Source: a virus. From it: DNA of 24,765 nucleotides. The translations under genes were made by a program, and so were the position numbers. Under the pieces are notes generated by a model. It searched no databases. It worked only from the letters and a program-made list of their open reading frames with translations, and had not been told where the DNA came from. The stretch spans positions 1 through 24,765 of the IMG/VR virus record IMGVR_UViG_3300034375_009424. One strand, given 5' to 3'. Position 1 is the first letter of the stretch, and the number at the start of each line of letters is the position of its first letter. Shown here piece after piece: positions 5,167 to 20,583 of this stretch.

Positions 5167-5184
5167 GTTACGAATACGACGTTA

Positions 5185-6027
5185 TCAGGAGTCCGGAAGA
5201 AGGTACTCCTTCACTCGTTCCAGTTTAAACAATTCTGGCGGTAAAAGATCGTGCGGATACGAGGTAAGCAGATGATCTTTACGGCCGAGTGGATCCGTAC
5301 CGCCCGCTTGAGCTTTGTAGTTATCTAAATAATCAAGCATTTCCTCACTGTACGCGGGAGCGTGGGCATTTGGAATATCGTCATAACAGTGCGAGAAGGA
5401 TGTTAGTTTGCGTTTAAGCCGATCAGGACCGCCCATCCAGCTAAAGTGCCACCCTGCGTCACAGTCTCCCACGACAAGGTCATTAGGGTTACGACGTATC
5501 TCAGACAAGGTTTTATCCAGGTGGTCATGTAGGACCACGGTGCCGCAAGTCCAGTTAGTTGGCGGCTTTGTTTTATCTCCATCAGGGCTCATCACGCGGA
5601 GATCCGCCCGGCCGTACATCATGGGCATAGACAAACGCACACAACGAGAAGGATCCTCTTTAGCTTTTTTTACAGCTTCTAAAAGCGCAGAGGGCTTAGG
5701 AATTTCGTCTACATCACTAAAGAAAAACGCCGAATCGGGCGGTGTCATGCGCATACCGACCGCCAACGCATCACGTTGCGAGTACTCTCTTACCCAAGGA
5801 TTTGGGGCAATATCCGGAGGCGGCAGTTCGACGTGGAGAACCTGAATTTTGTCTTCCGGAAGTCCTAACTCGCGAATCGTGTCGACGCAACTAAAAGGCT
5901 TTTCGTCTCCTTTAAAAGTCCTATCGGCGTCTGTAATAATAAAACCATCGACAATATCCTTAAGCATTTCCACGCGGAGCTCTAGGAGCTCGCGTTCATT
6001 GAAGTACAAAAAACAATCGAACAGCAT
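5185..6027 (-). CDS. Glycosyltransferase family 17-like protein
   Basis: The 280-residue protein matches the GT17 family (PF04724, named for the eukaryotic beta-1,4-N-acetylglucosaminyltransferase that adds bisecting GlcNAc) from end to end: MLFDCFLYFNERELLELR at the start, NPWVRE (residues 76-81), the metal- and nucleotide-sugar-binding SDVDEIP (104-110, DxD Asp105/Asp107), and GWHFSWMGG (192-200). Bacterial and phage members transfer sugars in envelope or virion glycans; donor and acceptor here are unknown. It lies directly upstream of the portal gene (18-base gap) in the same orientation, inside the head operon. The ATG at 6027 sits in a perfect hairpin (6022-6037) and lacks a clear ribosome binding site. 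Confidence 0.85.
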   Translation of the reverse strand: MLFDCFLYFNERELLELRVEMLKDIVDGFIITDADRTFKGDEKPFSCVDTIRELGLPEDKIQVLHVELPPPDIAPNPWVREYSQRDALAVGMRMTPPDSAFFFSDVDEIPKPSALLEAVKKAKEDPSRCVRLSMPMMYGRADLRVMSPDGDKTKPPTNWTCGTVVLHDHLDKTLSEIRRNPNDLVVGDCDAGWHFSWMGGPDRLKRKLTSFSHCYDDIPNAHAPAYSEEMLDYLDNYKAQAGGTDPLGRKDHLLTSYPHDLLPPELFKLERVKEYLLPDS

Positions 6028-6037
6028 GAGGATGCTG
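6022..6037 (-). promoter_or_regulatory. Hairpin sequestering the start codon of the GT17 gene
   Basis: CAGCAT (6022-6027) pairs with ATGCTG (6032-6037) around GAGG. In the minus-strand mRNA the AUG start codon is within the 3' arm of this stem, which could lower translation or make it depend on ribosomes arriving from upstream genes. Confidence 0.4.
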
Positions 6038-6094
6038 AGAGGGCCTGCATAGTTTAGCAGGATTTACAAGATAACAACTAAAAACTTTAAAATG

Positions 6095-6349
6095 CTACCA
6101 CTTTTTACAACTCCAGTAGCGTGCTTTTAACTTACTTCCAGGGGTATCGCAATTATGACGAGCTCTAAAGCTTTCACGACGTTCGGGTATGTGTTTCTTA
6201 ATCGTCATATTTGGATCACCAAAACGAACTAATCGAACCTGATCACCTTCTTTTGCTGCGACTGCAAATTTTTTACCTCCGTCAGAATCACGACGAGGTT
6301 GGTTGTACCCGGAGAATATTTCTCCGGCGAGTCGAATCTTAGCCATCAT
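6095..6349 (-). CDS. Conserved small phage protein with C-terminal ARYWSCKKW motif
   Basis: The 84-residue basic protein carries a pattern I recognise from many phage and algal-virus proteins: KFAVAAKEG, then VRLVRFGDPNM, then RRESFRARHNCDTPGS and the ending KARYWSCKKW. The two conserved Cys near the end could bind metal. In other phages this block is found near, or fused to, head-maturation or DUF5872-type genes, as here, but its biochemical role is unknown. The start is ATG at 6349 or the adjacent ATG at 6346; the first overlaps the upstream stop as ATGA, suggesting translational coupling. A perfect 8-bp hairpin (6309-6327) lies shortly after the start. No protease active site is visible. 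Confidence 0.75.
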   Translation of the reverse strand: MMAKIRLAGEIFSGYNQPRRDSDGGKKFAVAAKEGDQVRLVRFGDPNMTIKKHIPERRESFRARHNCDTPGSKLKARYWSCKKW

Positions 6350-6564
6350 TTTTTACCTTTACTTTTAATATAAGCGGAGGCGCGACGACGTGCTTCTTTT
6401 GCTTTTTCAGTATTCGGCACCTGAGTATTTACGGGTTTGTTACCCGACGTGGCCCTCTTTTTCTTTTCATCCGTAGCTTTACGCTCCTTGTCGGACATTG
6501 AGGCCCACGCTTCTTTAGGCAGATAACGCTCAGTTCGCCCTTTTTCTCGCGCTAAATCAGCCAT
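6346..6564 (-). CDS. C-terminal half of a DUF5872-like protein (separate gene)
   Basis: The 72 residues are very basic. Residues about 12-40 (ERYLPKEAWASMSDKERKAT, then DEKKKRAT) resemble the second half of DUF5872-type phage proteins, where a segment of type ERYLPKKAxxxLSxxExxAT followed by KKRxxT is common. The usual first half is encoded by the next upstream gene (6567-6797), two bases away in another frame. This looks like a split of one ancestral gene, or a natural two-gene version. Function unknown; the Lys/Arg content suggests nucleic-acid contact. The ATG at 6564 lies just after a 6-bp hairpin (6569-6584) covering the upstream stop. Confidence 0.7.
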   Translation of the reverse strand: MADLAREKGRTERYLPKEAWASMSDKERKATDEKKKRATSGNKPVNTQVPNTEKAKEARRRASAYIKSKGKK

Positions 6565-6566
6565 AA

Positions 6567-6797
6567 CTAAGAACTTTTGTTCTTTTCGTATTCTTCACGA
6601 GTTTGCCAATCTTCTTTTCCCCAACGACTTAATTTATTTTTGCTTGATTTTTTACCTTCGTATCCGCCCCCCGCATCTTTGTAGTATTTAACGGCCAACT
6701 GCATGGCTCGGGCCGAATGTCCGCCGAGACGCTTGCGAGCTTTAGCTTTAGCGGCTGCCCATTTCTTTGGGTCCCGCTTTTTCGCGACTTCAGACAC
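6567..6797 (-). CDS. N-terminal half of a DUF5872-like protein (separate gene)
   Basis: The 76-residue basic protein has a Lys/Ala-rich start, HSARAMQLAVKYYKDAGGGY (about residues 27-46) and LSRWGKEDWQT (about 56-66). This matches the first half of DUF5872-type phage proteins (pattern xARxAQLxxKxYxxxGGxYxG, then LxxWTKExWxT). It ends where those continue into an ERYLPKKA segment, which is the next gene. Start is GTG at 6797, overlapping the end of the 107-aa gene by eight bases. Function unknown. Confidence 0.7.
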   Translation of the reverse strand: MSEVAKKRDPKKWAAAKAKARKRLGGHSARAMQLAVKYYKDAGGGYEGKKSSKNKLSRWGKEDWQTREEYEKNKSS

Positions 6798-7113
6798 TGG
6801 GAGTCACGGCGCCATCGCCGGGATATACAGGAACACCGGTCCGAGGCCCACGCTTGGCGGCTGCCTTTCGCAAAAGCTTAGCTTTCATAGATTCCGTGGG
6901 ATCTTCTTCCGGCGTAAACTCATCCTCGTAAGTTCCGTAGGGACCATATTGAGGAGGAATCGGTGCATTTAGCGGTTGCTCGCTGACTTGATTTTCATAA
7001 CTATCGCTACGCATCGCAGGACGTTGAGCCGTACGCTGACGACGCGATGCTAACTCCTGAGCATTAAATGCTTTGGTGAAAAAATCACCAGCTTCGATAA
7101 AAGGGTCAGCCAT
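6790..7113 (-). CDS. Unknown 107-aa protein in the small-gene cluster before portal
   Basis: Not recognised. The N-terminus (residues 1-30) is probably helical, residues 45-75 are Pro/Tyr/Glu-rich (PPQYGPYGTYEDEF), and residues 76-90 are basic. No signal peptide or membrane helix. It overlaps the next gene by eight bases and follows the 64-aa gene by 18 bases, so it belongs to the same tightly packed minus-strand operon. Confidence 0.6.
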   Translation of the reverse strand: MADPFIEAGDFFTKAFNAQELASRRQRTAQRPAMRSDSYENQVSEQPLNAPIPPQYGPYGTYEDEFTPEEDPTESMKAKLLRKAAAKRGPRTGVPVYPGDGAVTPSV

Positions 7114-7131
7114 GACTTAATTATAACGATG

Positions 7132-7326
7132 TCAAATAGAGCCTAGGGCTTTTATTTCAGCTGCTCTAGCTAACAAGGCGTCTTTAAAAAGATCTAACGG
7201 ACCGCTTTGCGCGGCTGCTCCTTTACGTAAAGCATTGATAATTTGATCGGCATCCATGCCGGCACTTTCACGCAGACTTTTGCCACCCTGCAGGTACGTA
7301 ACTAAGCCGGAAAGGTCGCTAGCCAT
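7132..7326 (-). CDS. Unknown 64-aa helical protein
   Basis: Not recognised. The sequence is mostly alpha-helical by composition (Ala/Leu/Asp/Lys, with LRKGAAAQSG in the middle). The ATG at 7326 overlaps the upstream stop by one base (TGATG), which points to translational coupling. It is part of the small-gene run between terminase and portal. Confidence 0.6.
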   Translation of the reverse strand: MASDLSGLVTYLQGGKSLRESAGMDADQIINALRKGAAAQSGPLDLFKDALLARAAEIKALGSI

Positions 7327-7607
7327 CAGTACAAGACTACGACATTAGTTACGTTACCACTTACAAGAGCTGTACAAGAGAGGGGACAGAGAAAATCACC
7401 GTTCAAGTGATTGTTTTCACATACCTGTCCTGGAGCATCTGTAAATTCTACTAAAAGACTTTTGTTACTGCCTCCGCCATTTTGAATAAACAAACCCCTA
7501 CACGCTGGAAAATATTTAGTTCCATCGGCGGGTACCCAAGTAAATCCACTTGAATAAGGCAGAGACGCTACCTGGCCGTAAACAGACCCAAATGCTCTTA
7601 CGTCCAC
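7326..7607 (-). CDS. Small beta-rich phage protein, possible virion component
   Basis: The 93-residue protein resembles a class of small phage structural proteins with the layout PxDGTxxxxxCRGLxIxxGG, then a strand-rich middle, a short GxFLPL-like turn, and an ending of type TNVVxLY: here PADGTKYFPACRGLFIQNGG (26-45), NGDFLCPLSC (69-78) and TNVVVLY (87-93). Four Cys are present. Similar proteins occur near head or tail genes and may be decoration or connector parts; this is inference. Start is GTG at 7607, three bases after the DUF3310 stop. Confidence 0.6.
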   Translation of the reverse strand: MDVRAFGSVYGQVASLPYSSGFTWVPADGTKYFPACRGLFIQNGGGSNKSLLVEFTDAPGQVCENNHLNGDFLCPLSCTALVSGNVTNVVVLY

Positions 7608-7610
7608 AAG

Positions 7611-7838
7611 TCAGTTGTTATCTTGAGTCAATTCTAACTCACCGATCAAACACTGTAAGTACCACGCGGCCTTCTTCAAGTCCTCGACACCGTTTTTGTG
7701 CTTGTACCTCCAGAGGTATTTAGCGATATTGCCGTGGCAGTAGCCCTGAAACCCCTCATTACCGACTTGTTCTTTAATGGCATCTATGCACTCAATAGCA
7801 CCAGACGTATAATGCGAAGGATGATTGACGTTGTCCAT
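7611..7838 (-). CDS. DUF3310 protein (T7 gp1.7-like family)
   Basis: The 75 residues carry the DUF3310 signature along the whole length: VNHPSHYTSGAIECIDAI (4-21), GFQGYCHGNIAKYLWRY (29-45) and NGVEDLKKAAWYLQ (49-62). DUF3310 occurs in T7 gp1.7, described as a nucleotide-kinase-related protein, and in many phages as a stand-alone small protein, so a role in nucleotide metabolism is plausible. It sits between a glycosyltransferase and virion genes, away from the dCMP deaminase. Confidence 0.9.
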   Translation of the reverse strand: MDNVNHPSHYTSGAIECIDAIKEQVGNEGFQGYCHGNIAKYLWRYKHKNGVEDLKKAAWYLQCLIGELELTQDNN

Positions 7839-7845
7839 AAAAATA

Positions 7846-8727
7846 CTAAAGCGTAAGCATTGTATCGCAAGTAATCAGGTTGCCAACCTTATTGCTCAGC
7901 TCCGTCGAGTACTTAATGTCGTCATGTTGCAACAAACAACAGTCATGCGGCATGTAAATTCCGTTTTTTTCGACTACTGGGACACATCGCCGGTGTTCAT
8001 AGCCGGAAGGAGGTGTTTCAAACGCTAAACCCATAGAACTACGGTCAGCTAAAGGCCAATTTCGGAAGGAAACAAGCTCTATACTCCGCATCGGGTCCAT
8101 ACTCGTACTTTTTACGTATTTAATCGCATCATCGGCATCCAAAATCATAGCGGCGTAATAAGGACTGCCCAAACTCGCAAAAAACCGTATTTCGTGGTCT
8201 ACTACGAGCTGTTTTGCGACGGTAAACCCACGCTCGCTCCAAACATTTGGAGTTTTTTCGGTTAAAGAGTATCGATAGTGGTTATCAAAAGGTACTTTTT
8301 TACCTCCGAACAGTTCATACCGTATAAATCCCGGCTCTAAGCCTACCTCAGCCAATCTAGGCTTCCAGCGCATCCAGTATTTGAAGTGATCCCAAGTTAA
8401 AAGCATGTCATTTTCTTGATATATAAAATAGTCGTACTCTTTGCGCATACAAGCTACAGTCAAATTTGGTTTATGCGCCCAAGTAAGCCACCAGCCGGTA
8501 TGCTCGGGACTCGCTACCACGATTTCTATATCGATTTGCTCTAAAAAAGGCCGCAAAAGAGCCGATAGCTGAGGGATTTGCTCCTGAGCTTCGTAGTTAA
8601 CAAACAAAAAAACCGAGACTTTCAGCTTGTACTCTGTGTAAAGTTTTAAAACTTTAAAAAGAGTGTCCAATCGAGCCATTGGCTCGTGGGCTGTAATGGC
8701 CACCCAGAGCTTTTTGTCTGTTTCCAT
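7846..8727 (-). CDS. Putative GT-A-fold glycosyltransferase next to terminase
   Basis: The 293-residue protein (from the ATG at 8727) starts with LWVAITAHEPMARLDTLFKV, the beta-alpha opening of a GT-A glycosyltransferase, and has YFIYQENDMLLTW (about 100-112), where the acidic END takes the place of the usual DxD. A C-terminal region contains GYEHRRCVP and a His/Cys-rich segment. I do not recognise the exact family. A longer reading from TTG at 8739 overlaps the terminase end; the ATG one base after the terminase TGA is preferred, suggesting coupled translation. Donor and acceptor unknown. Confidence 0.65.
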   Translation of the reverse strand: METDKKLWVAITAHEPMARLDTLFKVLKLYTEYKLKVSVFLFVNYEAQEQIPQLSALLRPFLEQIDIEIVVASPEHTGWWLTWAHKPNLTVACMRKEYDYFIYQENDMLLTWDHFKYWMRWKPRLAEVGLEPGFIRYELFGGKKVPFDNHYRYSLTEKTPNVWSERGFTVAKQLVVDHEIRFFASLGSPYYAAMILDADDAIKYVKSTSMDPMRSIELVSFRNWPLADRSSMGLAFETPPSGYEHRRCVPVVEKNGIYMPHDCCLLQHDDIKYSTELSNKVGNLITCDTMLTL

Positions 8728-8728
8728 A

Positions 8729-10252
8729 TCAGTACTCAACAGAAAAACTACCTCGGCGCTGTAAAAATGTAATTACCCACGTGTAGGCGTCAAGTAAATC
8801 GTCATGAGCTGTAGCGCCGACGTTAATAAGCTGTTCAAAAAGAGCGTCGAACTTTCTGTACTTATTAAAAATGACTTTTTGATTCTCAAGTAAACCCAAA
8901 GTACCTCTAAAACGAGCAATTTTATCGCCCCGGAAGCCCTTCACTTCATGAATATGTAAATTGCTAAGACCTCTTTCGTTAAGGAGCACTCTTCGAAGGT
9001 CTGCTGCAAGGCTGGCTTGATAAGCGACAGACTCAACCACCAAGGTCACAGTGGAATAAGTCGGTTGATACTCTCCGTTGTACTTAGTTAAAATGCCCCA
9101 CTCAAGCAACATGTCGCACAAAAGATCTATTTTTTCGAGATTTCCAATGGAACGACATTGGTGAGCATCGACAATGTAATATTTATCTTTCAAACGACCG
9201 CTTAAAACAAAAGCGGTGTAGTCCGATGTCTCGTTTTTACTCGCTGAAAGATCAATGCCCAGCGCCAAACTATCAAATTCGGTAGCTACATCTCCTTTGA
9301 TAAGCAAATCAGGCGACACGACTAAATCAGATGTCGCCACGGGTTGTTGCTGGTACTGAAAACAAAAAGCTACAGGATCTAGTTCTTTTTGTTGAAGCAA
9401 ATAATCTACAGACCACTGAGTCTGCCAATAGCTTTTAGGTTGTCCTTTGTCGTCATAAGTCAGAGCTTCTTGCGTAACTTGTTTCCATCCCTTATCGGGT
9501 ACAAACATCGTTTTATGGATGTCTAAAGGATGGAAGCGAGTGCCCAAACAAATTGAACGGCCACCTTCAAAAACAATGGGAGCGATAACGCTACTCCAGT
9601 TATTATTCATCTCTTCCCGAATCGTAGGATTTTTGATGTCCGCTGAAGATTTTATAGGGTCATCAATTAACACCAAGTGAGCACGTTTACTGGTAATACT
9701 ACCTCGCAAACCAGCTGCCCTTAGCGTAAATTCTTCATCACCAAGACGAGGAATTCCGGCATAATCGTAGTCAATCGACCAACCAATGTCAGATTGCATA
9801 CCCGGTTTAAGCCGGCACGTAGGAAAAATCTTACGAAACTCAGAGGAGTCGACAATCTGACGAATAATCCGTGATTTAGGTATGGCCGTGGCGATGTTGT
9901 AACTTACATAAATAATCTGAAGCGGTCTTTTAGCGGCTGTATGGCGACCAATACACCAAGCCGTAAACATATTGAGCACAGTGGACTTAGCAGAACCCCT
10001 GGGCGCCAGAATATCTAAGTTAGGTCCTGCTATATCTATAAGATACTTATTACTCTCATTAGTCACCAAATACTCATGCCATTCAAGCATGTGAGGAGCC
10101 GGAGGTTTATCTAGTATAGTACAGAAAGTATGGAAGTCATTTGAAGCCTTGGTGTAAATAGTTTCTGTAGCGCTACTGTCGTTATTTTCTATTGCTTTAA
10201 GAGCTCGTAGCTGTGCCCCACGGCGATACGCAAAAGTTTCCCGACTAGGCAT
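8729..10252 (-). CDS. terL: Terminase large subunit (DNA packaging ATPase/nuclease)
   Basis: The 507-residue protein drives DNA into the prohead and cuts the concatemer. Visible motifs: Walker A APRGSAKST (83-91), Walker B HLVLIDDP (192-199), coupling motif CLGTRFH (235-241), then the RNase H-like nuclease domain beginning LALGIDLSAS (329-338, Asp334) and ending HDDLLDA (483-489) with further acidic residues. The order and spacing match the Terminase_6 / TIGR01630-type large terminases. No small terminase gene is evident beside it; the 176-aa protein at 12561-13091 is only a weak candidate. The ATG at 10252 has no clear ribosome binding site; a promoter-like element lies just upstream, divergent from the GT4 gene. 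Confidence 0.95.
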   Translation of the reverse strand: MPSRETFAYRRGAQLRALKAIENNDSSATETIYTKASNDFHTFCTILDKPPAPHMLEWHEYLVTNESNKYLIDIAGPNLDILAPRGSAKSTVLNMFTAWCIGRHTAAKRPLQIIYVSYNIATAIPKSRIIRQIVDSSEFRKIFPTCRLKPGMQSDIGWSIDYDYAGIPRLGDEEFTLRAAGLRGSITSKRAHLVLIDDPIKSSADIKNPTIREEMNNNWSSVIAPIVFEGGRSICLGTRFHPLDIHKTMFVPDKGWKQVTQEALTYDDKGQPKSYWQTQWSVDYLLQQKELDPVAFCFQYQQQPVATSDLVVSPDLLIKGDVATEFDSLALGIDLSASKNETSDYTAFVLSGRLKDKYYIVDAHQCRSIGNLEKIDLLCDMLLEWGILTKYNGEYQPTYSTVTLVVESVAYQASLAADLRRVLLNERGLSNLHIHEVKGFRGDKIARFRGTLGLLENQKVIFNKYRKFDALFEQLINVGATAHDDLLDAYTWVITFLQRRGSFSVEY

Positions 10253-10271
10253 GTCTATAAGCTGATAGCAC

Positions 10272-10280
10272 TGTTATATT
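10272..10280 (+). promoter_or_regulatory. Extended -10 promoter for the plus-strand GT4/GH130-like pair
   Basis: TG (10272-10273), one base, TATATT (10275-10280) forms an extended -10 element with 5 of 6 consensus bases, 26 bases before the GT4 ATG. No good -35 is present, which is usual for extended -10 promoters. Confidence 0.45.
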
Positions 10281-10299
10281 GATTGTACTCGACTTTCAA
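10273..10299 (-). promoter_or_regulatory. Possible divergent promoter for terminase
   Basis: On the minus strand TTGAAA (10294-10299) and TATAAC (10273-10278) each match 5 of 6 consensus bases, but the spacer is only 15 bases. The -10 overlaps the plus-strand -10, so the two promoters would compete for polymerase. Confidence 0.35.
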
Positions 10300-10306
10300 A
10301 TTCTTC

Positions 10307-11479
10307 ATGGCGAAAGTTCTTTGGTACGGAGATGCGTGTAGTAATACAGGTTTTGCCAGAGTCACTCACAGTGTACTTGATAGCCTAAAAGAAAGCCATG
10401 AGATCGTGGTGATGGGCATCAACTACACAGGAGATCCTCACAACCTGCCTTACAAAGTTTACCCGGCATGTCCAGCCGGCAGTAACGATCGTTTTGGGAT
10501 CGGCAGGCTGCCCGAAATCTTACATAAAGAAAAACCAGACGTTGTAATCTGTCTTAACGATATCTGGATTGTTAACCAATTTTGGGAACGCTGCCAGTTT
10601 TTAAAAGACAAGCTCAAATTTAAATTCATTGCTTACTTCCCGGTGGATAGCGAAAGCTATTACCCAGATATGCTCCGGCATATTAAACACTGGGATTTGG
10701 GAATTACTTTTACCGTACCCTCGGCAGAAAGACTGATGAAGTACGGGGCAGATGCGCCCCGGTTAGCGGTGCTCCCCCACGGTGTCGATGTCGGTCGTTT
10801 TTACCCGATGGATACAGCAGAAGCACGTAGTCGCCTAGGATTGCCATTAGATAAATTTATTGTATTTAACGGTAATAGGAATCAACCCAGAAAACGTATA
10901 GATCTGACAATCAAAACATTCGCGGAATTTGCAGTAGATAAACCCGACGCGATGTTGTATTTACATATGGGTACAAAAGACCTGGGTTGGGACGTATTAC
11001 CTTTGTTTAAACACGAAATGACTCGACGTAATCTAGACGAAACTAATAGACTTGTTCTTACCGCAAACAATATCAACTATATCGATGCGCCGCCGGATGA
11101 ACTTTTAAATACGATCTACAACGCTTGCGACGTGGGGATAAATACATCCGACGGAGAGGGCTGGGGTCTTGTCAGTTTCGAACACGCCGGGTGTATGAAG
11201 CCTCAGGTCGTCCCGCACCACACCGTGTGTCAGGATATCTGGAAGGATGCCGCTGAACTTATCCCCATTTCCACATGGGTTGTGGATAAGGACTTAGGGG
11301 TTGAGCGCGGTCTTATCGATACGACCAAAGCGGCGAAAATTTTAGACGATCTGTACTACGATAAACAAAGCTATGATGAAGTAGCTAACGCGTGCTACTC
11401 TGTGACTCAACGACCCGAGTATCGCTGGGAGTCAATCAGCGCAGGATTCAATGCCGCTATCCAAGATCTAGGAGTTTGA
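10307..11479 (+). CDS. GT4-family glycosyltransferase (GT-B fold)
   Basis: The 390-residue protein is a retaining GT-B glycosyltransferase. Features: the N-terminal acceptor domain starting KVLWYGDACSNTGFARV (3-19), PHGVD (157-161) at the domain junction, NGNRNQPRKRID (188-199) as the donor-domain start with phosphate-binding Arg/Lys, and the GT4 motif EGWGLVSFE (284-292; Glu284 and Glu292 form the EX7E pair). Substrate unknown. A longer frame from TTG at 10283 adds eight residues, but the ATG at 10307 gives the natural start. It points away from terminase and is followed three bases later by a GH130-like gene, a two-gene carbohydrate unit opposite to the surrounding virion genes. Confidence 0.85.
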   Translation: MAKVLWYGDACSNTGFARVTHSVLDSLKESHEIVVMGINYTGDPHNLPYKVYPACPAGSNDRFGIGRLPEILHKEKPDVVICLNDIWIVNQFWERCQFLKDKLKFKFIAYFPVDSESYYPDMLRHIKHWDLGITFTVPSAERLMKYGADAPRLAVLPHGVDVGRFYPMDTAEARSRLGLPLDKFIVFNGNRNQPRKRIDLTIKTFAEFAVDKPDAMLYLHMGTKDLGWDVLPLFKHEMTRRNLDETNRLVLTANNINYIDAPPDELLNTIYNACDVGINTSDGEGWGLVSFEHAGCMKPQVVPHHTVCQDIWKDAAELIPISTWVVDKDLGVERGLIDTTKAAKILDDLYYDKQSYDEVANACYSVTQRPEYRWESISAGFNAAIQDLGV

Positions 11480-11481
11480 TC

Positions 11482-12564
11482 ATGCAGTCTCAAAATCGCT
11501 ACTTTCACCTTTACAGCGACGTTATTTTCCCTTCGAAGCGTCCTGACAAAGGCGTGCCGACTGTTTACGAACAAGCTGAAGCGTTAGGCGGTAAATTCAC
11601 GCGAATCGTAAAAGGTTTACCTAAGAACAGTGTCGCTAACTTTAGTCCTTCAATAATTAACAGGTTGGGAAAAACTTATATAGCTTGGCGATCTCAACCC
11701 GAAGCATTTGGCTTCAGGTACGACAATAAGTACTTTTATCTAAATAACCAACCCAACGAAATTTATATAGCCATGCTTGGAAGCAATGATGCTTCTGTCA
11801 TCGGCACTAAAAAACTTCGATCTAAAAAACACAGGCTTAGCTATGAAGATCCCAGGCTATTTACCGGGCCGGACTCAAACCTGTATGTTCAATTTGTAGC
11901 TTCTACATACGCCAGTAAATACGACTCAAATACCAAAAAACTTTTTTCGCAACCAAAAGTCGTTGTCTGCTGGGTTAACGATTTATTTGAAGCGGTAAGT
12001 GCAGCTATTCCGCCTATCGGAAAAAATCACACCGTGGGAGTACCGGAGAAAAACTGGGCTTTCTTTACCGCTAACGATGAGCTGAACTGTTTGTACTCCA
12101 CGCGGCCTTTAATCGTCGAAAGAGAGAACGGACCTTCTATTGAACTCGACACAAAAATTTTAGAAAAAGCTACAGGAGGTGCAGCTACTTTTAACTCCAC
12201 CGCCCCTATTAATTTGGGGTATTGCTACCTTGTTTTTTATCACTGGAAGCACATGGTATGCACAGACGACGGTAAACCTTACCTTATTTACCATGTAGGG
12301 GCTTATCTGGTTGATAAAAACTTCAAAGAAGTAACTTACTTCACGGAAGAACCCTTATTTACAGGTTCTTTAAACGATCGCGTTATCGAATGGACGGACG
12401 TTTGCGGCAATCCAGTTTCAAATCAACCTGCAGTAATTTTGCCCTTCGGTGCATTTCTGGAAGGAGATGAACTTGTGATGTCTCTCGGCGTCAATGATGC
12501 TTTTATGGGCATCTTCAGAACAAAGCTACAAAACATCATGCGCCGTATGCGCAAAGCCGATTAA
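11482..12564 (+). CDS. GH130-like beta-propeller enzyme (mannoside phosphorylase/hydrolase type)
   Basis: The 360-residue protein shows the repeated short-strand pattern of a five-bladed beta-propeller and motifs like those of GH130: SPSIINRLGKTYIAWR (55-70), YEDPRLF (121-127, the EDPR loop), PEKNWAFF (188-195), FYHWKH (252-257) and a closing blade with SLGVNDAFMGIF. GH130 enzymes are mainly phosphorylases of beta-mannosides; a few hydrolyse. Whether catalysis is retained cannot be judged by eye. Start is ATG at 11482 with GGAG seven bases upstream (11471-11474), three bases after the GT4 stop; a longer frame inside the GT4 gene is rejected. The last four bases, TTAA, are shared with the stop of the convergent minus gene. 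Confidence 0.7.
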   Translation: MQSQNRYFHLYSDVIFPSKRPDKGVPTVYEQAEALGGKFTRIVKGLPKNSVANFSPSIINRLGKTYIAWRSQPEAFGFRYDNKYFYLNNQPNEIYIAMLGSNDASVIGTKKLRSKKHRLSYEDPRLFTGPDSNLYVQFVASTYASKYDSNTKKLFSQPKVVVCWVNDLFEAVSAAIPPIGKNHTVGVPEKNWAFFTANDELNCLYSTRPLIVERENGPSIELDTKILEKATGGAATFNSTAPINLGYCYLVFYHWKHMVCTDDGKPYLIYHVGAYLVDKNFKEVTYFTEEPLFTGSLNDRVIEWTDVCGNPVSNQPAVILPFGAFLEGDELVMSLGVNDAFMGIFRTKLQNIMRRMRKAD

Positions 12565-13091
12565 GCGCGTTCTTCGTTCTCAATAGTAGTCCAAACTAAG
12601 ACGGCGGCCTCGTCAACTAATTGCTGAAGACCAGGCTGCCCGTCGAGGGTATTGATCAGTTCGCGAATGGTGCGATCTGCGCCGGCAAGGATCAAACCAC
12701 GGCGGTCTAGACCGTCCGCAATAGATCTAACAGCCTGAATGTGGCTACGAAGTTCTTTTTGAACCGCTGAAATTTTTGTCGCAGCGGATGCGGGGTCGAG
12801 CATCTGATTTTGAACCATGTCCCGTACATTTCTGATGTCAATTTGTAAGTCATCAATTTCACGAAGTAATACTTTGCGTAGATCTTCTTTAGGGAACTTC
12901 TCCTGGATCCACGCGGTCAGATCGGCGATACTACCTGTGTACCCCGGTCGCAAGAATCTAGCGTATAAATACGCTTCAATGTCGCTCGTTGTATTCTTCG
13001 CGTAATGGACGAACGCATCTTTGTTTGACGCGTCAAGCGAAGCTAACCACGCGGCAACCGTGGTTGAATCACCTATCGCCGATTTGATCAC
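12561..13091 (-). CDS. Unknown 176-aa helical protein, probable virion or packaging component
   Basis: Not recognised. Residues about 60-120 are strongly helical with heptad-like Leu/Ile/Val spacing (EIDDLQIDIRNVRDMVQNQM), consistent with a coiled coil; the N-terminal 50 residues contain Asp/Tyr-rich helices. It is the last gene of a minus-strand run of virion-like proteins. Start is GTG at 13091, overlapping the upstream TGA as GTGA. A small-terminase role is conceivable from size and helicity, but no DNA-binding motif is visible. Confidence 0.6.
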   Translation of the reverse strand: MIKSAIGDSTTVAAWLASLDASNKDAFVHYAKNTTSDIEAYLYARFLRPGYTGSIADLTAWIQEKFPKEDLRKVLLREIDDLQIDIRNVRDMVQNQMLDPASAATKISAVQKELRSHIQAVRSIADGLDRRGLILAGADRTIRELINTLDGQPGLQQLVDEAAVLVWTTIENEERA

Positions 13092-13831
13092 GCAAAGCCT
13101 CCGCCACCAAGAGCGGCCCCGCGAGCATCGCGACGCTTGGCAAATTCCAATTCACCTTGGCCCCTAAGTAACGCAAGGTTTTTACCAATGTCCAAGTTGG
13201 CCTGGGTTTGAGCTAGCACTTGTGCGTTACGAGTATTCGCAGCATTGGTGCCTACATCAGTAATACCTTTAGCTAAATTAGTGTACTGAAGACCCAGAAC
13301 ATCGGCGCCTTTTTTAGTTAGATCTGCTTGAGTCTCTCCGCCCAAAAGCTCCAAAGCAGTACGGCCTTTAGCGGCCATTTCCTGTTGGCCGATTGCTGCT
13401 CCGGCTAGTTGGGAAGAAATACCAGTCATTAAACCCGCCATCTGGTTTTCTTTAGAGCGAGCCCCCGTAAACATGTCATAAACAGACTGACCAATAAGAT
13501 TAGTCTGTGCTGCCTGAGCTCCTAGATAAGGAGCCATGTTAGCCATAAGCTCCTGGCCGGCGTAGGTCAGCTGTGTATTAATAGGTGCCAGCTGAGCGTA
13601 TAGCGAGCTGTAATCGGCCGGTTGCTGTGGTTGCTGTGAAGAACGCCCGCCGCCAAAAATGCTGCCAAAAGCGGAACCAAGTCCCCCAGCTAAAGTTCCT
13701 ATACCTCCTAAAGTCGCTCCTAAACCGCCTGCGGCCGCAGCGCCGCCAGCCAGAGCAGGCGTAGCGGCAAATGCAGAGCCGATAGCCGCAGATCCAAGTC
13801 CAGCAGCAGGTATTAAAGCCGGAATAGGCAT
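13088..13831 (-). CDS. Ala/Gly-rich putative internal virion (ejection-type) protein
   Basis: The 247-residue protein begins with a hydrophobic Ala/Gly/Leu-rich stretch (residues 1-60) without charged residues, long enough to enter a membrane. Then comes a Gln/Ala-rich amphipathic helical region (70-230) and a Gly-rich tail. This resembles internal virion proteins of short-tailed phages that leave the capsid with the DNA, such as the T7 gp14 type, in composition only. Start ATG at 13831 has a good ribosome binding site (AGAGG eight bases upstream). It forms a run with two other Ala-rich genes. Confidence 0.6.
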   Translation of the reverse strand: MPIPALIPAAGLGSAAIGSAFAATPALAGGAAAAGGLGATLGGIGTLAGGLGSAFGSIFGGGRSSQQPQQPADYSSLYAQLAPINTQLTYAGQELMANMAPYLGAQAAQTNLIGQSVYDMFTGARSKENQMAGLMTGISSQLAGAAIGQQEMAAKGRTALELLGGETQADLTKKGADVLGLQYTNLAKGITDVGTNAANTRNAQVLAQTQANLDIGKNLALLRGQGELEFAKRRDARGAALGGGGFA

Positions 13832-13835
13832 CGAA

Positions 13836-14597
13836 TTAACCTCTCTTTACACCGATGTTACTAAAAGGCTGCATAGCAGCCGAGAGCGTAGAGCTCAAAG
13901 CAGACGCATTAGGCGGCGCAAAAGCAGCTATAGTAGCGGCACCTAAAGAAGCGTTCGCAATTGCATTTGCGTTGTACATAGCAATTTGCCGTTCCTTCCA
14001 CGAATCGATGTTTGCCTTTTCAATATCGCGTGCGTAGCGAGCCCGCTCACCCTGACGAGTTAACTCAGAAGTCAAGAGTTGAGACTTGAGTAAATTCTCA
14101 AGCCGCATTCCTTCGACTTCTTTTAACCGTGAAGGATCCCCTAGTTCCTTTAAATACTCAAAGAGACCTCTAACAGTTTCATCTTGCTGTTGAGGAACAG
14201 TGGTACCTGAGTAAGGCGCCGTAGTTTGCGGCAGCGAATTGTTAGGAGGAGGCGGAAGAATCGGAGGGGGAGGAGGAAGCTGGTCTTCCATACCACCAGG
14301 GGTAACGGTACCAGGCTGTTTGGGGGTTTTAGGCGTCTTAGCTGCCATAGCCTCAGGTTTATACCCGCGAAGCGACGTGGCCCGCTGATAAATTTCGGCC
14401 GGGGACTTAGCTCCGGTCAGCGCTTCTGCTTGCTGGGGACCGGTATATTCGAAAAAACTTTCAGGGCTCTGCCAACCCATCTGAGGTCCGGCCCAAACCA
14501 CGGGGCGTCCGCCGAGAATGGCAAGCTCACCGCCGCCCCGCATCATGGCTGCAGGATCAAGCAGATTTTTAGCGACTTCAAAAAGTCCATTTGCCAT
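13836..14597 (-). CDS. Putative virion protein with polyproline linker
   Basis: The 253 residues (ATG at 14597, one base after the upstream TGA) fall into an N-terminal domain (1-75), a basic Pro/Lys linker with PPPPPILPPPP (about 108-118), a charged helical region (about 150-215, GERARYARDIEKANIDSWKE) and a hydrophobic Ala-rich C-terminus (about 215-245). The helix-plus-hydrophobic layout mirrors its neighbours in reverse order, suggesting co-assembling internal or neck proteins. A longer frame to 14645 runs into the upstream gene and is rejected. Confidence 0.6.
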   Translation of the reverse strand: MANGLFEVAKNLLDPAAMMRGGGELAILGGRPVVWAGPQMGWQSPESFFEYTGPQQAEALTGAKSPAEIYQRATSLRGYKPEAMAAKTPKTPKQPGTVTPGGMEDQLPPPPPILPPPPNNSLPQTTAPYSGTTVPQQQDETVRGLFEYLKELGDPSRLKEVEGMRLENLLKSQLLTSELTRQGERARYARDIEKANIDSWKERQIAMYNANAIANASLGAATIAAFAPPNASALSSTLSAAMQPFSNIGVKRG

Positions 14598-14598
14598 G

Positions 14599-15306
14599 TC
14601 AGGGTACCTGGGTGCCGAGTTGCTGCAGAACGGAACTGGACGCAAGGTTCTGCGGAGCAGTCAGGTTCTGGATAGCCGTATTTAATAACGACTGAGCCGT
14701 ATTGTATCCAGATGCGACTCGCTGACGTTGAATATCCCCAAGGGAACTCAGTTCCTGTCGTTTTATGCCGCCACCAACTTCTAGTTCAGCCTGCTGCAAT
14801 CCGGCACCCAATTCCATCTGCCGGATAGCAGATTGAATTTGACCTTCTAAAGCTTTTAAAGCACGTTCACGAGCACCGAGTTCTTCTAATTCAGAACTGC
14901 GCCCGGCTCGAATTTGACCGTAGACGTCTTCAGCAGACGGCCCAGAATCTAAACCAAAAAATCGACCGAAACGTTGACGAGCTCGTTCCTGCTCAATCAA
15001 TCGAGGAATCAGATCCTCGCTAAGAATCGCTTTAGAACCAGGAGCGTCGGAAGTGTCGGGTAGTCGGCCACGCAAAGCCGAAACTAAATCCGGAACTGAG
15101 GCGCCGACCGCCGAACTTAACAGAGGTGCGACGATATTCTGCCGGTTAAATCCAGGCGGTGTGGCAGGAGCGGCACTCGCCGCCTGACTTTGTAAAATAC
15201 TTTGAATTACAGCAGGCGCTACATTAGCTGCAGTAAGCTGCGTAGCTAAATTAACTAGCCCACCTGCTGCGGGCGCTGCTGCGGGCGCGGCGGCTAAAGC
15301 AACCAT
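14599..15306 (-). CDS. Ala-rich putative virion protein with coiled coil
   Basis: The 235-residue product opens with an Ala/Pro-rich hydrophobic stretch (1-20, 20 of the first 50 residues being Ala), a Ser/Asp-rich middle, then a long Glu/Gln/Arg helical region (about 125-215) likely to form a coiled coil. No enzyme motif. It shares the hydrophobic-then-helical plan of the 247-aa protein two genes downstream. Start ATG at 15306 follows the previous stop by three bases. Confidence 0.6.
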   Translation of the reverse strand: MVALAAAPAAAPAAGGLVNLATQLTAANVAPAVIQSILQSQAASAAPATPPGFNRQNIVAPLLSSAVGASVPDLVSALRGRLPDTSDAPGSKAILSEDLIPRLIEQERARQRFGRFFGLDSGPSAEDVYGQIRAGRSSELEELGARERALKALEGQIQSAIRQMELGAGLQQAELEVGGGIKRQELSSLGDIQRQRVASGYNTAQSLLNTAIQNLTAPQNLASSSVLQQLGTQVP

Positions 15307-15309
15307 TAC

Positions 15310-15546
15310 TTATTGACCTCCCGGATTGTCATACTGAGTGCCCGAAAGAGCCATTTTCTTATTTGATTTTACTTGATCTTCTGGGTTATTAGCAGCAACC
15401 GTATTCTGCAATTGTTCCGGCGAAGGTAATGCAGATGTCTGAGGGAACGTAGAAGCAATATACATTTTTAAAAAACTACTAGGATCTAAATCCGGCGCAT
15501 AGCGTCGAACGTCCCGTTCCTTCAGTTGTTGTTCCCTTGAGTTCAT
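15310..15546 (-). CDS. Unknown 78-aa protein
   Basis: Not recognised. The first 20 residues are charged (REQQLKERDVRRYAPDLDP), and the rest is Ser/Pro/Asn-rich and probably disordered. The ATG at 15546 overlaps the upstream stop by one base (TGATG). It is part of the virion-like operon. Confidence 0.55.
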   Translation of the reverse strand: MNSREQQLKERDVRRYAPDLDPSSFLKMYIASTFPQTSALPSPEQLQNTVAANNPEDQVKSNKKMALSGTQYDNPGGQ

Positions 15547-16049
15547 CAGAGGAGAGCCTGGAACGCCATGCTGGGCGGAATGTTGTTAGAAGCGGGGGCG
15601 TTCAGCATTGAGTATTGACCGCCGTGATTAGGCAAATCAAATTCAGCAGGACGCTGGCGACTTAAATACTCAGCACCTTCATCTCCCTGTTGCGTCAGAT
15701 TTTGGATATACGCCAAGAACACATCGACAAGCGACGGGTCTTCCAGAATCGCCGCCACAAGCTCTTCAACTTCATCAGCAGCATTTTCGTCGACAACACC
15801 AGCTTGAAGACGTCGCTCCAGCTGCACTTTCATTTCAGGCTGGGATGTGTCCGGATACGCGTTTAACGAGCGAGTAGGTTGCGTCATCATCCCGTCACCC
15901 TCCATGCCAGGCATCGGGGGCGCAGCACGGTAATAACTCTTGAGCACTGTGGCAACCATTGGAGTCGCAGCAGCACGCTCAGCAGACGTGCGGGGAACAG
16001 GCAAACCCAGTACACGAGCCGCTAATGCGTAATCGGAATCTGAGAACAT
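15546..16049 (-). CDS. Unknown 167-aa acidic protein, probably structural
   Basis: Not recognised. The N-terminus (SDYALAARVLGLPVPRTSAE) looks helical, the centre is Met/Pro-rich, residues about 80-118 are acidic helices (ADEVEELVAAILEDPSLV), and the C-terminus is Pro/Asn-rich. It overlaps the XRE-type gene by 28 bases at its start, so the two are likely translated from one message. Confidence 0.55.
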   Translation of the reverse strand: MFSDSDYALAARVLGLPVPRTSAERAAATPMVATVLKSYYRAAPPMPGMEGDGMMTQPTRSLNAYPDTSQPEMKVQLERRLQAGVVDENAADEVEELVAAILEDPSLVDVFLAYIQNLTQQGDEGAEYLSRQRPAEFDLPNHGGQYSMLNAPASNNIPPSMAFQALL

Positions 16050-16347: not shown

Positions 16348-17112
16348 TTAAAAACCTAAATTTTTAGCTCGCACAAACTCAAGATTATAAGTCGTTAAAC
16401 AAGAGGGAAACGCAGAATTGTTAAAAGGGTTCTTATAAGGTTTACCTTCAACGTGACCCTGCCACGCCTCGGACCATTTGGCGTGCATGTAAGTTTTATT
16501 GAGTTCGTGTGCCATGTGAATTCGATTAGCTAATTCAGGTTCGGACCTCCAAGTTTGAGAGCCGTCGTCATACGAACCGGTCAACTCCCCGTGGTAATAA
16601 GGAACGCCAACAGACATAACGCGTTTAAAATCATCGTGTTGAAAACGCATCCCCCAATCAAGATCTTCACAGTAGGCAGGGTAAAGATTTTCATCAAACA
16701 ACCCGTATTTTTGTACTGCCCAGTCTTTGAGTAAGAAAACGTCCCACGCTCCGTTATCGCCGTGCACCACACCGGCTTCTTTGTCTTGAGCCGCATCGTG
16801 CATAGCCTCAAGAAACCCAGGAGTGAACATTACGTCATGATTTACGATGAGCCAATAAGGCGCATCCATAAAACATTTAATGGTTAGATTCCAATAACCA
16901 GAACAGCCGACGTTTGCCGGCAAATGACACACCTTCACGTTTTTGACATACTTATGTGGGATTTTTTTTAATGCGTCTAATTCTTCGGTTATTTGATCTC
17001 GTCCGTTATTGTTAAAAACAACAAAAGTATCTACAGGATAATCTATGCTGTAAAAAAGCCTATAAACCCAATGAGGGGCATTAACAACGCCGGTGCTGAT
17101 GACAGGGATCAT
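16348..17112 (-). CDS. GT2-like (GT-A fold) glycosyltransferase
   Basis: The 254-residue protein fits an inverting GT-A enzyme of the GT2 type. FVVFNNNGRD (30-39) follows the first strand; NVGCSGYWNLTIK (67-79) resembles the N-x-G-x-xx-x-N loop; WLIVNHDVMFTPGFLEAM (87-104) contains the metal-binding HDV (92-94) in place of DxD; AYCEDLDWGMRFQ (146-158) supplies the acidic catalytic pair after it. Substrate unknown. It is divergent from the FkbM-type methyltransferase across a 68-base gap, and the two could modify one glycan. Codon use is AT-rich. Confidence 0.8.
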   Translation of the reverse strand: MIPVISTGVVNAPHWVYRLFYSIDYPVDTFVVFNNNGRDQITEELDALKKIPHKYVKNVKVCHLPANVGCSGYWNLTIKCFMDAPYWLIVNHDVMFTPGFLEAMHDAAQDKEAGVVHGDNGAWDVFLLKDWAVQKYGLFDENLYPAYCEDLDWGMRFQHDDFKRVMSVGVPYYHGELTGSYDDGSQTWRSEPELANRIHMAHELNKTYMHAKWSEAWQGHVEGKPYKNPFNNSAFPSCLTTYNLEFVRAKNLGF

Positions 17113-17159: not shown

Positions 17160-17180
17160 ACTGACACAAACAAAAAAAAC

Positions 17181-17897
17181 ATGACAAAGTTTCTTTGGAG
17201 TCCGCAGAGTAAATCAATAATCCCTGTGCAACAGCCTGCGTTCTTAATGAACGAGGATGAATCCGGCCTGTGCCAAATGTTCCGCGTAGGAATCCCCGAA
17301 CACGAACTAATTGAATTTTGTAAACAATTTGCCGATCCGTCAAAACGGTTTATTGACGGTGGAGCACACATGGGTGCATACAGTATTCTGCTGTCAGACT
17401 TGTTCGAACACGTCGATGCGTTCGAAGCTCAACGCCGCACATATTTTCAACTCTGCGGAAACATTTATCTAAACGAAAAAGCAAACATAACTCCACATAA
17501 TTTTGCTTTGACGAACCACGAGCACACTTACGGCGACACGACGCTGTACATCGTCAGCGATGATGGAGGCGGATCCTCAACAATCAAACCCGATTCAGAT
17601 AAAATCCAAGCAAAAGAGACCATAGAGACTATCCATATTGACAATTTCGAATGGTCTGATGTGGGTTTAATTAAATTGGATGTCGAAGGATCCGAATTAG
17701 AAGCTATTCAAGGTGCTCGCGAAACTTTAAAACGCTGCAAATTTCCGCCAATTTTATTCGAATCCAACGGACCAGGAGCTCATAATCAAAAACGTGCTGA
17801 ACTGTTCAAACACTTAATGACGGAGCTGCCGTATCAAGTCGGCAGCATTAGAGGCTTCGACAATATGTTTATTGCTGTTCGACAGGAAGCTGCATAA
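17181..17897 (+). CDS. FkbM-family SAM-dependent methyltransferase
   Basis: The 238-residue protein is a class I methyltransferase of the FkbM type, which usually O-methylates sugars or polyketides. Motifs: FIDGGAHMGAYS (57-68, SAM-binding glycine loop) and LIKLDVEGSELEAIQGA (163-179), the FkbM hallmark. In phages such genes often lie beside glycosyltransferases, as here (divergent GT2-like gene), so capping or methylating a glycan is the likely task. The ATG at 17181 has no Shine-Dalgarno sequence but an A-rich leader. The 3' end overlaps the convergent dCMP deaminase gene by 29 bases. Confidence 0.88.
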   Translation: MTKFLWSPQSKSIIPVQQPAFLMNEDESGLCQMFRVGIPEHELIEFCKQFADPSKRFIDGGAHMGAYSILLSDLFEHVDAFEAQRRTYFQLCGNIYLNEKANITPHNFALTNHEHTYGDTTLYIVSDDGGGSSTIKPDSDKIQAKETIETIHIDNFEWSDVGLIKLDVEGSELEAIQGARETLKRCKFPPILFESNGPGAHNQKRAELFKHLMTELPYQVGSIRGFDNMFIAVRQEAA

Positions 17898-19129: not shown

Positions 19130-19150
19130 GTTGATCTGGATTTAAAGAGG

Positions 19151-19224
19151 TCCCGGCGGGCGGATTCGAACCGCCGACTGCTCGATTTTAAATCGAGAAC
19201 CTCATTCCGCTGGGTCACGCCGGG
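19151..19224 (-). tRNA. tRNA with anticodon UAA (reads UUA, Leu by code) and short variable loop
   Basis: The 74-base minus-strand cloverleaf has a perfect 7-bp acceptor stem (CCCGGCG with CGCCGGG), U8, a 3-bp D stem (ACC/GGT) with A14 and GG, a 5-bp anticodon stem (CTCGA/TCGAG) around TTTAAAA, and a perfect T arm (GGCGG, TTCGAAT, CCGCC). Position 34-36 is TAA, which reads UUA. The discriminator is A; CCA is not encoded (the 3' bases are CCT). The variable loop is only five bases (CAGTC), whereas bacterial leucine tRNAs have a long variable arm. So charging by LeuRS is uncertain. Confidence 0.92.
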
Positions 19225-19685
19225 GTGTCATCATAATACCTCGGATTCGGCTGACCGCCGCGAAAAGTCTTTTTTAATCGTTGACCGTATTTGCCTGCGC
19301 ATTTTTTAGAACAGAAAGGGCCTGCTTTTTTCTGCTTCACTTGATTACCTCGTACGTCACGCATAGGTTTATAAAACGAGGTGCGGCACTCGGGGCATAC
19401 AAAATAAGCTTCTTCGGGTTTTCTTAGTGCCGCAGACTTTAACGAGTTATCAGACCGGGATAAAACTTGCAGGTTAGATAAACAGTTATTTGTAAAATCT
19501 CCATCTATATGATCACATGTTTCATCTTCCAACAAAGCTCTTCCTAGCTTTTGCTCAAGTAAATACTTTGGATAACTTACAGTTTTTCGTTTGCCGTTTT
19601 CGTAGAGGATGACATGCTGCCTACCGTCTTTACGAGTGTAAGGACCATAAACTTTCAGTTCACCACTCGGGCGCTCGTTCAGCAT
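19215..19685 (-). CDS. HNH endonuclease with C-terminal zinc-finger pair, probably homing type
   Basis: The 156-residue protein has an N-terminal sheet of type VYGPYTRKDGRQHVILYENG, then the HNH motif CDHIDGDFTNNCLSNLQVLS (57-76; His59, Asp61 and Asn67 as key residues), then Cys97/Cys100 and Cys125/Cys129, a likely zinc-binding finger. Free-standing phage HNH proteins of this shape nick or cut DNA and spread as homing genes. Start ATG at 19685 is chosen over a longer frame (to 19823) that overlaps the upstream gene. The TGA stop lies in the tRNA acceptor stem (shared bases 19215-19224). Confidence 0.85.
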   Translation of the reverse strand: MLNERPSGELKVYGPYTRKDGRQHVILYENGKRKTVSYPKYLLEQKLGRALLEDETCDHIDGDFTNNCLSNLQVLSRSDNSLKSAALRKPEEAYFVCPECRTSFYKPMRDVRGNQVKQKKAGPFCSKKCAGKYGQRLKKTFRGGQPNPRYYDDTPA

Positions 19686-19723
19686 ACTCCCACGACACAG
19701 AGGCAAGCAGCATCGTAACACTA

Positions 19724-19939
19724 CTAAACTAACAGCCGCCCTTCTCCGATCGCCTTCCTCACAAAATACAGTTCCTTCTCGGGCGCCAAGTGCCAAGAAC
19801 TTACATAGCATTCGTCGCCCCACACGCTCTTGATTACTACCGAATCCCCGTCAGTATGGTTTGCGCTAGTTACGTACTTGGCAATATCCACGCCTGAAAG
19901 ATCTACTTCCTTGACGTCGGAGTTTGGTTTCCTTATCAT
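19724..19939 (-). CDS. Unknown 71-aa protein
   Basis: Not recognised. It is mixed charge, with an SVVIKSVWGDECYVSSW core that looks beta-stranded and a short C-terminal helix. A frame reaching 20029 crosses the promoter and start of the plus-strand operon, so the internal ATG at 19939 is preferred. The plus-strand promoter overlaps its first codons. No strong Shine-Dalgarno sequence. Confidence 0.5.
   Translation of the reverse strand: MIRKPNSDVKEVDLSGVDIAKYVTSANHTDGDSVVIKSVWGDECYVSSWHLAPEKELYFVRKAIGEGRLLV
19911..19939 (+). promoter_or_regulatory. Sigma70-type promoter of the plus-strand operon
   Basis: TTGACG (19911-19916, 5 of 6 of TTGACA), a spacer of exactly 17 bases and TATCAT (19934-19939, 5 of 6 of TATAAT) lie 26 bases before the methyltransferase ATG. 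It is the best promoter match I saw in the window. It overlaps the 5' end of the divergent 71-aa gene. Confidence 0.7.
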
Positions 19940-19965
19940 ACTGATATCACTAAGCTGATGGCTCC

Positions 19966-20583
19966 ATGCCTCACAGTCTAGATCCGAAATATAGCATCCA
20001 CAACGACTGGGTCCAAAACTTCCTGGCATCCTGGGAACTCATCAACAAAACGCCCCAAGCATCAGAACTCCAATTTAGCCCATCTGCTAGACGTTTAATC
20101 GTCGAGATTGGCATTTATGAGGGTGCGTCGACAGTTTGGTTCTCCGACAACCTGCTCGAACACCCCGACAGCAGATTGATCAGTATCGACCCGTTCACCG
20201 GCTCCCAAGAACAGATTAACGACCCCCGGCAGCATCCCACGCTGTCCCAGATCGAATTCACCGCCAGATCCAACGTCGCCAAATCTAAACACGCCGGCAA
20301 GGTCCGCATCGAAAAGGGCTGCTCGTGGGACCTCTACCCGAACCTCAAGGCCGAACTCACACAAGGCATAGACATCCTGTATATTGACGGTGCTCACGAC
20401 AGCACCTCAGTCATGCGTGACATTGCTCTGTACGCGCCCCATGTCAAATCAGGCGGCGCTATCCTATTCGACGACTACGGCGCTGAGTCTGTGCGCATTT
20501 CCGTAGATGCAGCCGTTAGTACATTCCTTTCTCTTGAAAAAGGTGTACTGTGTCCCTGGCAGCTCTGGACCGTCAAAAAATGA
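19966..20583 (+). CDS. Class I SAM-dependent methyltransferase (Methyltransf_24 type)
   Basis: The 205-residue protein has the SAM-binding loop VEIGIYEGASTVW (46-58), LISIDPFTGS (71-80) with the acidic residue of motif II, IDILYIDGAHD (135-145) as motif IV and GGAILFDDYG (163-172). This matches the Methyltransf_24 / cephalosporin-hydroxylase-related group common in glycan and natural-product clusters; acceptor unknown. It starts a plus-strand operon with its own promoter. C/G-ending codons are more frequent than in the FkbM-type gene (32 versus 22 G+C bases in hand-counted 60-base samples), suggesting a different source. Its TGA overlaps the ATG of the next tiny gene. Confidence 0.85.
   Translation: MPHSLDPKYSIHNDWVQNFLASWELINKTPQASELQFSPSARRLIVEIGIYEGASTVWFSDNLLEHPDSRLISIDPFTGSQEQINDPRQHPTLSQIEFTARSNVAKSKHAGKVRIEKGCSWDLYPNLKAELTQGIDILYIDGAHDSTSVMRDIALYAPHVKSGGAILFDDYGAESVRISVDAAVSTFLSLEKGVLCPWQLWTVKK

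Follow-up and report, generated by a model that had tools for sequence, protein, structure and literature searches.

A Fixed Core of Predicted Glycan-Modification Genes in an S-EIV1-Related Phage Lineage

Seven genes of predicted glycan metabolism lie in a 24,765-base stretch of viral DNA (IMG/VR virus record IMGVR_UViG_3300034375_009424; the whole stretch is called the window below, and coordinates are positions in it). Five of them form a fixed core of the phage lineage to which the window belongs: a GT17-family glycosyltransferase gene, a gene for a predicted GT-A-fold glycosyltransferase, an adjoining pair encoding a GT4-like glycosyltransferase and a GH130/GT108-like protein, and a GT2-family glycosyltransferase gene. 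Two further genes, for an FkbM-type and a Methyltransf_24-type methyltransferase, are variable. Together they may constitute a lineage-fixed glycan pathway, most likely one that decorates the virion, a reading to which we assign a probability of roughly 0.5. The original prediction, made from the DNA of the window, had already recognized this group of glycan genes within the structural region and suggested that they may act on one product; the seven open reading frames (ORFs) are real and lie where it placed them, and the function class it proposed, virion or envelope glycosylation, is a sensible one.

Conservation of the Core Genes

Relatives were collected by portal similarity (80, of which 20 as whole contigs of 28–86 kb) and by GH130 similarity (80), and the two sets, once merged and cleared of redundancy, comprised 103 sequences, counting the window or its equivalent. 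The sampled relatives are the nearest ones, with portal proteins 76–100% identical, and come from a widespread lineage with hundreds of IMG/VR contigs. Wherever a relative covered the slot in question, the core gene was found there in the same place and orientation: GT17 (5185–6027, minus strand, directly upstream of the portal gene) in 72 of 72, GT-A (7846–8739, minus strand, immediately downstream of the large terminase subunit gene terL) in 74 of 74, GT4 (10307–11479, plus strand, the first of a plus-strand pair) in 66 of 66, GH130 (11482–12564, plus strand) in 66 of 66, and GT2 (16348–17112, minus strand) in 26 of 26. GT4 was opposite to terL in all 66 relatives. The set retrieved with GH130 is biased toward the GT4–GH130 slot, and portal-retrieved records were counted separately; these alone gave 50/50 for GT17, 34/34 for GT-A, 22/22 for both GT4 and GH130, and 11/11 for GT2.

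Distances among the versions of each glycan gene track the terL distances (Mantel r 0.68–0.82, with 0.79 for the portal and 0.77 for the backbone gene g12561). Median ratios of nonsynonymous to synonymous substitution (dN/dS), for which some genes offered few unsaturated pairs, were 0.03–0.07 in the five core genes and 0.14–0.20 in the two methyltransferase genes. Recurrence in fixed slots over about 100 non-redundant sequences, together with dN/dS well below 1, is far beyond chance. Fixed in place and orientation and co-diverging with terL, the five core genes are therefore part of the inherited backbone of this lineage, and the co-divergence and low dN/dS indicate that this backbone is under purifying selection.

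These results bear directly on the possibility that the genes are morons, acquired independently and with unrelated functions, that share a region by chance. As had been noted from the start, none of the genes is a close copy of another; moreover, the FkbM and Methyltransf_24 genes are variably present, and a divergent GT17 allele (~51–57% identical) occurs in three relatives (L026, L048, and L077). Nevertheless, five genes that never change place or orientation among the relatives and that diverge in step with terL make such independent acquisition quite unlikely, and the original view of scattered genes gained one by one is not supported for the core. Co-occurrence in related genomes had been proposed as a check, with independent absences counting against the proposed system: the five core genes were never absent where the slot was covered, but FkbM was missing from 4 of 26 relatives and the Methyltransf_24 gene was variable. 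The divergent GT17 alleles stand at the same place by the portal gene, which suggests occasional replacement with function kept.

The Sister Lineage Lacks the Set Near Its Structural Genes

Read along its minus strand, the window encodes a terminase, a portal protein, a scaffold-like gene, and a major capsid protein (MCP). A DNA search of the whole window against 50,697 phage records returned no close match. Among phage records, its portal protein matches only that of Synechococcus phage S-EIV1 (KJ410740), with which it shares 47.7% identity. Five genes are common to the window and S-EIV1 in the same order (terL, portal, the scaffold-like gene, MCP, and g12561; profile matches E = 2e-32 to 1e-202). 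On this gene content and synteny, the fragment is assigned to an uncultured tailed phage of an S-EIV1-related lineage.

The glycan set distinguishes the two lineages. Eighty S-EIV1-like loci share terL, portal, MCP, and g12561 with the window, but within the stretches covered none of the seven genes has a homologue near their structural genes. S-EIV1 itself has no glycan gene between terL and its g12561 homologue; its sole homologue of the set is a GT4 gene (42% identical) far from the head genes, at 8.1–9.3 kb. The glycan set marks one of two lineages, by gain here or by loss in the sister.

The host is probably a picocyanobacterium, given the kinship of the lineage with S-EIV1 and S-CBS4, both of which infect Synechococcus, and the presence in relatives of speD, encoding S-adenosylmethionine decarboxylase. 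This gene is encoded by the near-complete relatives and is annotated in S-EIV1 too.

Identity of the Glycosyltransferases

Six of the seven genes match the families first proposed for them (GT17, GT4-like, GH130-like, GT2, FkbM, and Methyltransf_24). The GT17 product matches PF04724 (E = 4.9e-15; 55.9 bits against a curated cut-off of 26), and its SDxDE acidic metal-binding motif (D105, D107, and E108) is invariant in 26 aligned homologues. A scan of 84,980 prokaryote genomes with exact short patterns, an insensitive method, allowed no donor of GT17 to be named; it gave two weak relatives (26–34%), one in a proteobacterial metagenome-assembled genome (MAG) and one in a Leptospiraceae MAG.

The seventh gene, at 7846–8739, has no family match in Pfam or PHROG. 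Its AlphaFold model (pLDDT 88.8) was matched by Foldseek to the GT-A domains of GT6, LH3, and ColGalT with a probability of 1.00, at TM scores of only ~0.36–0.44, and an END motif (E109-N110-D111) is invariant in 26 homologues. Because of these fold matches and the invariant motif, the product is a probable GT-A transferase. PHROGs likewise held no match for GT17 or GH130, and a sequence-profile search of solved structures gave only weak chance matches for the GH130 and GT-A genes.

The GT4-like product matches phrog_2170, a glycosyltransferase group (E = 1.3e-49), and its scores with the Pfam GT4 models fall below the cut-off (20–25 bits vs. 26–28). Its C-terminal E283 and E291, in EX7E spacing, are invariant in 17 homologues, and it is 45.7% identical to a gene of cyanophage S-CBS4 and 42.3% to that of S-EIV1. 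After revision, GT4 probably starts at ATG 10307 and GH130 at ATG 11482, 2 bp past the GT4 stop, so that the pair looks like one bicistronic plus-strand unit. The GT2 product matches PF00535 (E = 3.4e-7; 30.8 bits against a cut-off of 23.3) and phrog_29879, a galactosyl transferase (E = 1.5e-21), with invariant NHD and YCED motifs.

The GH130/GT108-Like Protein

The protein encoded second in the plus-strand pair is a predicted mannosyl enzyme of GH130/GT108 type, a kind that did not turn up in any of the annotated phages searched. Its match to PF04041 (E = 7.5e-8; 32.1 bits against a cut-off of 26) is confined to the C-terminal third. The AlphaFold model (pLDDT 76.7) is a predicted five-bladed beta-propeller, and its best Foldseek matches are GH130 phosphorylases and Leishmania GT108 enzymes (E from 1.7e-10), at ~9–17% identity in structural alignment. 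The GT108 enzymes have been reviewed as dual transferase-phosphorylases with a GH130 fold and a similar mechanism (PMC8950772).

Four residues of the phage protein (N56, E125, D126, and D342) are invariant in 13 homologues. In the GH130 protein Teth514_1789, the −1 subsite consists of Asn28, Asp98, and Asp287, and in the GH130_NC cluster a Glu directly precedes that Asp (PMC4264767). When N56, E125-D126, and D342 are equated with these residues by motif and spacing rather than superposition, the N-to-D spacing is 70 in both proteins and the second spacing is 216 vs. 189. The mannose-contacting residues thus appear to be kept, despite the low overall identity and the partial Pfam match that set the phage protein apart from known GH130/GT108 enzymes. 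The fold matches and the invariant −1 subsite-type residues both support an active mannoside enzyme, which may be a mannoside phosphorylase or a GT108-like mannosyltransferase; in this setting it possibly runs in the synthetic direction.

Searches for sources of the protein were negative. The phage-type GH130 was absent from the same insensitive exact-pattern scan of 84,980 prokaryote genomes and was not found among INPHARED phages, and a search for bacterial GH130 genes to align, begun from the two MAGs that carry GT17 relatives, yielded none.

Variable Tailoring Genes

The two methyltransferase genes behave differently from the core. The FkbM-type gene (17181–17897, plus strand, divergent from GT2) matches PF05050 (FkbM/Methyltransf_21; E = 9.8e-14; 52.3 bits against a cut-off of 22.7) and occupies the region between GT2 and the deoxycytidine monophosphate (dCMP) deaminase gene in most relatives, being present in 22 of the 26 that cover the slot and in 7 of 11 among the portal-retrieved records. 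Two relatives, G012 and G013, have in its place a gene for an RmlB-like dehydratase together with a small methyltransferase-like gene, and in G017 an RmlD-like reductase gene stands beside FkbM. The second gene (19966–20583, plus strand), which resembles both Methyltransf_24 (PF13578; E = 2.2e-21; 77.1 bits against a cut-off of 26.3) and rhamnosyl O-methyltransferases (PF04989 RMNT_CmcI; E = 2.2e-5), was found in 10 of 26 contigs with the dCMP deaminase gene, some of which end too early to judge.

Beyond the part covered by the window, a GT47 exostosin-like gene lies near speD in six near-complete relatives (G014, G016, G017, G020, G021, and G022). In some near-complete relatives, a further gene resembling Methyltransf_24 adjoins the scaffold gene. 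A complete deoxythymidine diphosphate (dTDP)-rhamnose pathway was considered and rejected: only RmlB-like genes (two contigs) and RmlD (one) are present, and a scan of the relatives for the RmlA signature found none. Sugar donors would therefore come mainly from the host. A 208-amino-acid protein without a Pfam match is 93% identical between G016 (54370–54993) and G017 (37103–37729), a level far above that of their other genes, which suggests recent transfer.

Possible Function of the Gene Set

The explanation that we favor is that the core (GT17 by the portal gene, GT-A by the terminase gene, the opposite-strand GT4–GH130 pair, and GT2) works alongside variable tailoring enzymes, namely the FkbM and Methyltransf_24 methyltransferases and, in some relatives, RmlB, RmlD, and GT47. 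Late in infection, while the structural genes are expressed, the transferases would draw on host sugar nucleotides to assemble a short glycan inside the cytoplasm of the host cell. The GT4–GH130 pair would add or adjust a mannose unit, with the GH130-like enzyme acting as a phosphorylase or as a GT108-like mannosyltransferase, and the methyltransferases would cap the glycan variably by O-methylation. The finished glycan, probably mannose-containing, would then be attached to a virion protein. The virion is preferred over the host envelope as the target because the core genes resemble morphogenesis genes in placement and constancy. A stronger version, held only tentatively, is that multi-step virion glycosylation is obligatory for assembly in a large uncultured cyanophage lineage, in which the core sits in the packaging and head module and exchangeable tailoring genes vary the outer sugars.

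Several points weigh against decoration of the virion. The glycan and any acceptor protein or signal are hypothetical. While GT17, GT-A, and GT2 run in the same direction as the head and packaging genes, GT4, GH130, FkbM, and the Methyltransf_24 gene lie opposite the late-gene strand and may therefore be expressed at another time; scans for sigma-70-like promoters and for terminators gave hits no more frequently than shuffled sequence. The dN/dS comparison drew on two unsaturated pairs for GH130 and one for GT2, and the evidence for the host, namely kinship with S-EIV1 and S-CBS4 and speD in relatives, is indirect. In addition, multi-gene glycan sets of other cyanophages have been interpreted as host cell-wall genes, as in S-SCSM1 (PMC9602691).

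This usual interpretation, together with the opposite strand of four of the seven genes, makes remodeling of the host envelope (lipopolysaccharide, LPS, or capsule) during infection the main rival; such remodeling could, for example, block adsorption of released progeny or of competing phages. S-SCSM1 carries 13 cell-wall genes, including glycosyltransferases and a dTDP-glucose dehydratase, and P-SSM2 is cited for LPS genes (PMC9602691); RmlB and RmlD in some relatives of the window would also fit an envelope role. Like the window, these phages combine several glycan genes in one cyanophage, but they are T4-like with large genomes, and many of the S-SCSM1 genes bear neighboring ORF numbers (ORF113–135). 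Here, five genes occur in every relative, and instead of forming a single exchangeable cluster they stand singly or in pairs between the packaging and head genes. On balance, envelope remodeling seems somewhat unlikely.

Phage DNA glycosylation exists in principle, and modification of the phage's own DNA, with glycosylated hypermodified bases as a defense against restriction, would be consistent with the dCMP deaminase gene in the window and with an ORF in one relative that by eye resembles a ThyX-type thymidylate synthase. However, no base hydroxymethylase was recognized in the ORFs read, and the GT17, GT2, FkbM, GH130-like, and rhamnosyl-methyltransferase-like enzymes belong to glycan-metabolism families rather than to known base glycosyltransferases. 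We regard this explanation as very improbable.

Virion glycosylation by virus-encoded enzymes has precedents. In mycobacteriophages (Che8, Corndog, and Myrna), sugars are added to the capsid and the tail tube by glycosyltransferases that the phage itself encodes; in the part of that report consulted, one glycosyltransferase is named per phage (PMC12363180), whereas the present lineage has at least five conserved enzymes and two methyltransferases, recognized from genes alone. In chloroviruses and mimiviruses, virus-encoded glycosyltransferases, a methyltransferase domain, and rhamnose pathways have been linked to virion glycans (PMC4691112). These are large DNA viruses of eukaryotes whose enzyme families have not been demonstrated to be homologous to those described here, where most donors would be host-derived. 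Among phages, S-CBS4 resembles the window in having its GT4 gene between portal and capsid genes, followed by an annotated methyltransferase gene, but it belongs to a separate lineage and showed no match to the GT17, GT-A, GT2, or GH130-like genes.

Genomic Context of the Window

The backbone genes lie on the minus strand. They comprise MCP (64–1179; phrog_1357, major head protein, E = 1.3e-21; ~69% identical to its S-EIV1 counterpart), the portal gene (2926–5166; phrog_20475, E = 2e-161, and phrog_64, portal protein, E = 7e-10), terL (8729–10252; phrog_38, E = 4.7e-73; homologous to the S-EIV1 terminase), and g12561 (12561–13091; S-EIV1 homologue at E = 1.1e-41), which bounds the far side of the GT4–GH130 slot. 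Only about 64–16049 clearly consists of head, packaging, and linked genes. The original description of the glycan genes as lying between virion genes is accurate within this range, but GT2, FkbM, and the Methyltransf_24 gene sit in an accessory flank with a helix-turn-helix gene, the dCMP deaminase gene, an HNH gene, and a tRNA. The last is a tRNA-Leu (TAA) at 19149–19224 on the minus strand and adjoins the HNH endonuclease gene (19215–19823).

The scaffold-like gene (2481–3434, minus strand) shares 509 bases, read in a different frame, with the 3′ end of the portal gene. It is full-length in most relatives and represents a long conserved gene overlap. Its S-EIV1 equivalent is an ORF at 59287–60264 (scaffold profile E = 2.4e-32) that overlaps the end of the portal gene (57537–59840) and for which the GenBank annotation begins only at 59863. 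The S-EIV1 MCP gene (~60859–62010 of KJ410740, plus strand; L082:30860–32011) is likewise an intact 383-amino-acid ORF absent from the GenBank annotation, which places a minus-strand hypothetical gene (60784–61545) and a short plus-strand ORF (61540–62010) over it. Adjacent to MCP in the window, g1260 (1260–1973, minus strand) encodes a Tyr/Ser/Gly-rich protein present across the lineage, with no profile match within the S-EIV1 structural region; it may accept the glycan or decorate the head.

Implications

Glycan genes of phages are usually regarded as optional accessories. In this lineage, at least five are as constant as the terminase gene, and the set distinguishes the lineage from its sister. 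Virus-encoded glycan modification is a known kind of system; the present one, of predicted function, combines a fixed core with variable tailoring genes in one cyanophage lineage, a division that predicts strain-specific glycans. If the glycan does decorate the virion, the system would parallel, in a bacteriophage, the glycosylation known from chloroviruses and mimiviruses, and it would make the roles of phage glycans in adsorption, particle stability, and grazing directly testable.

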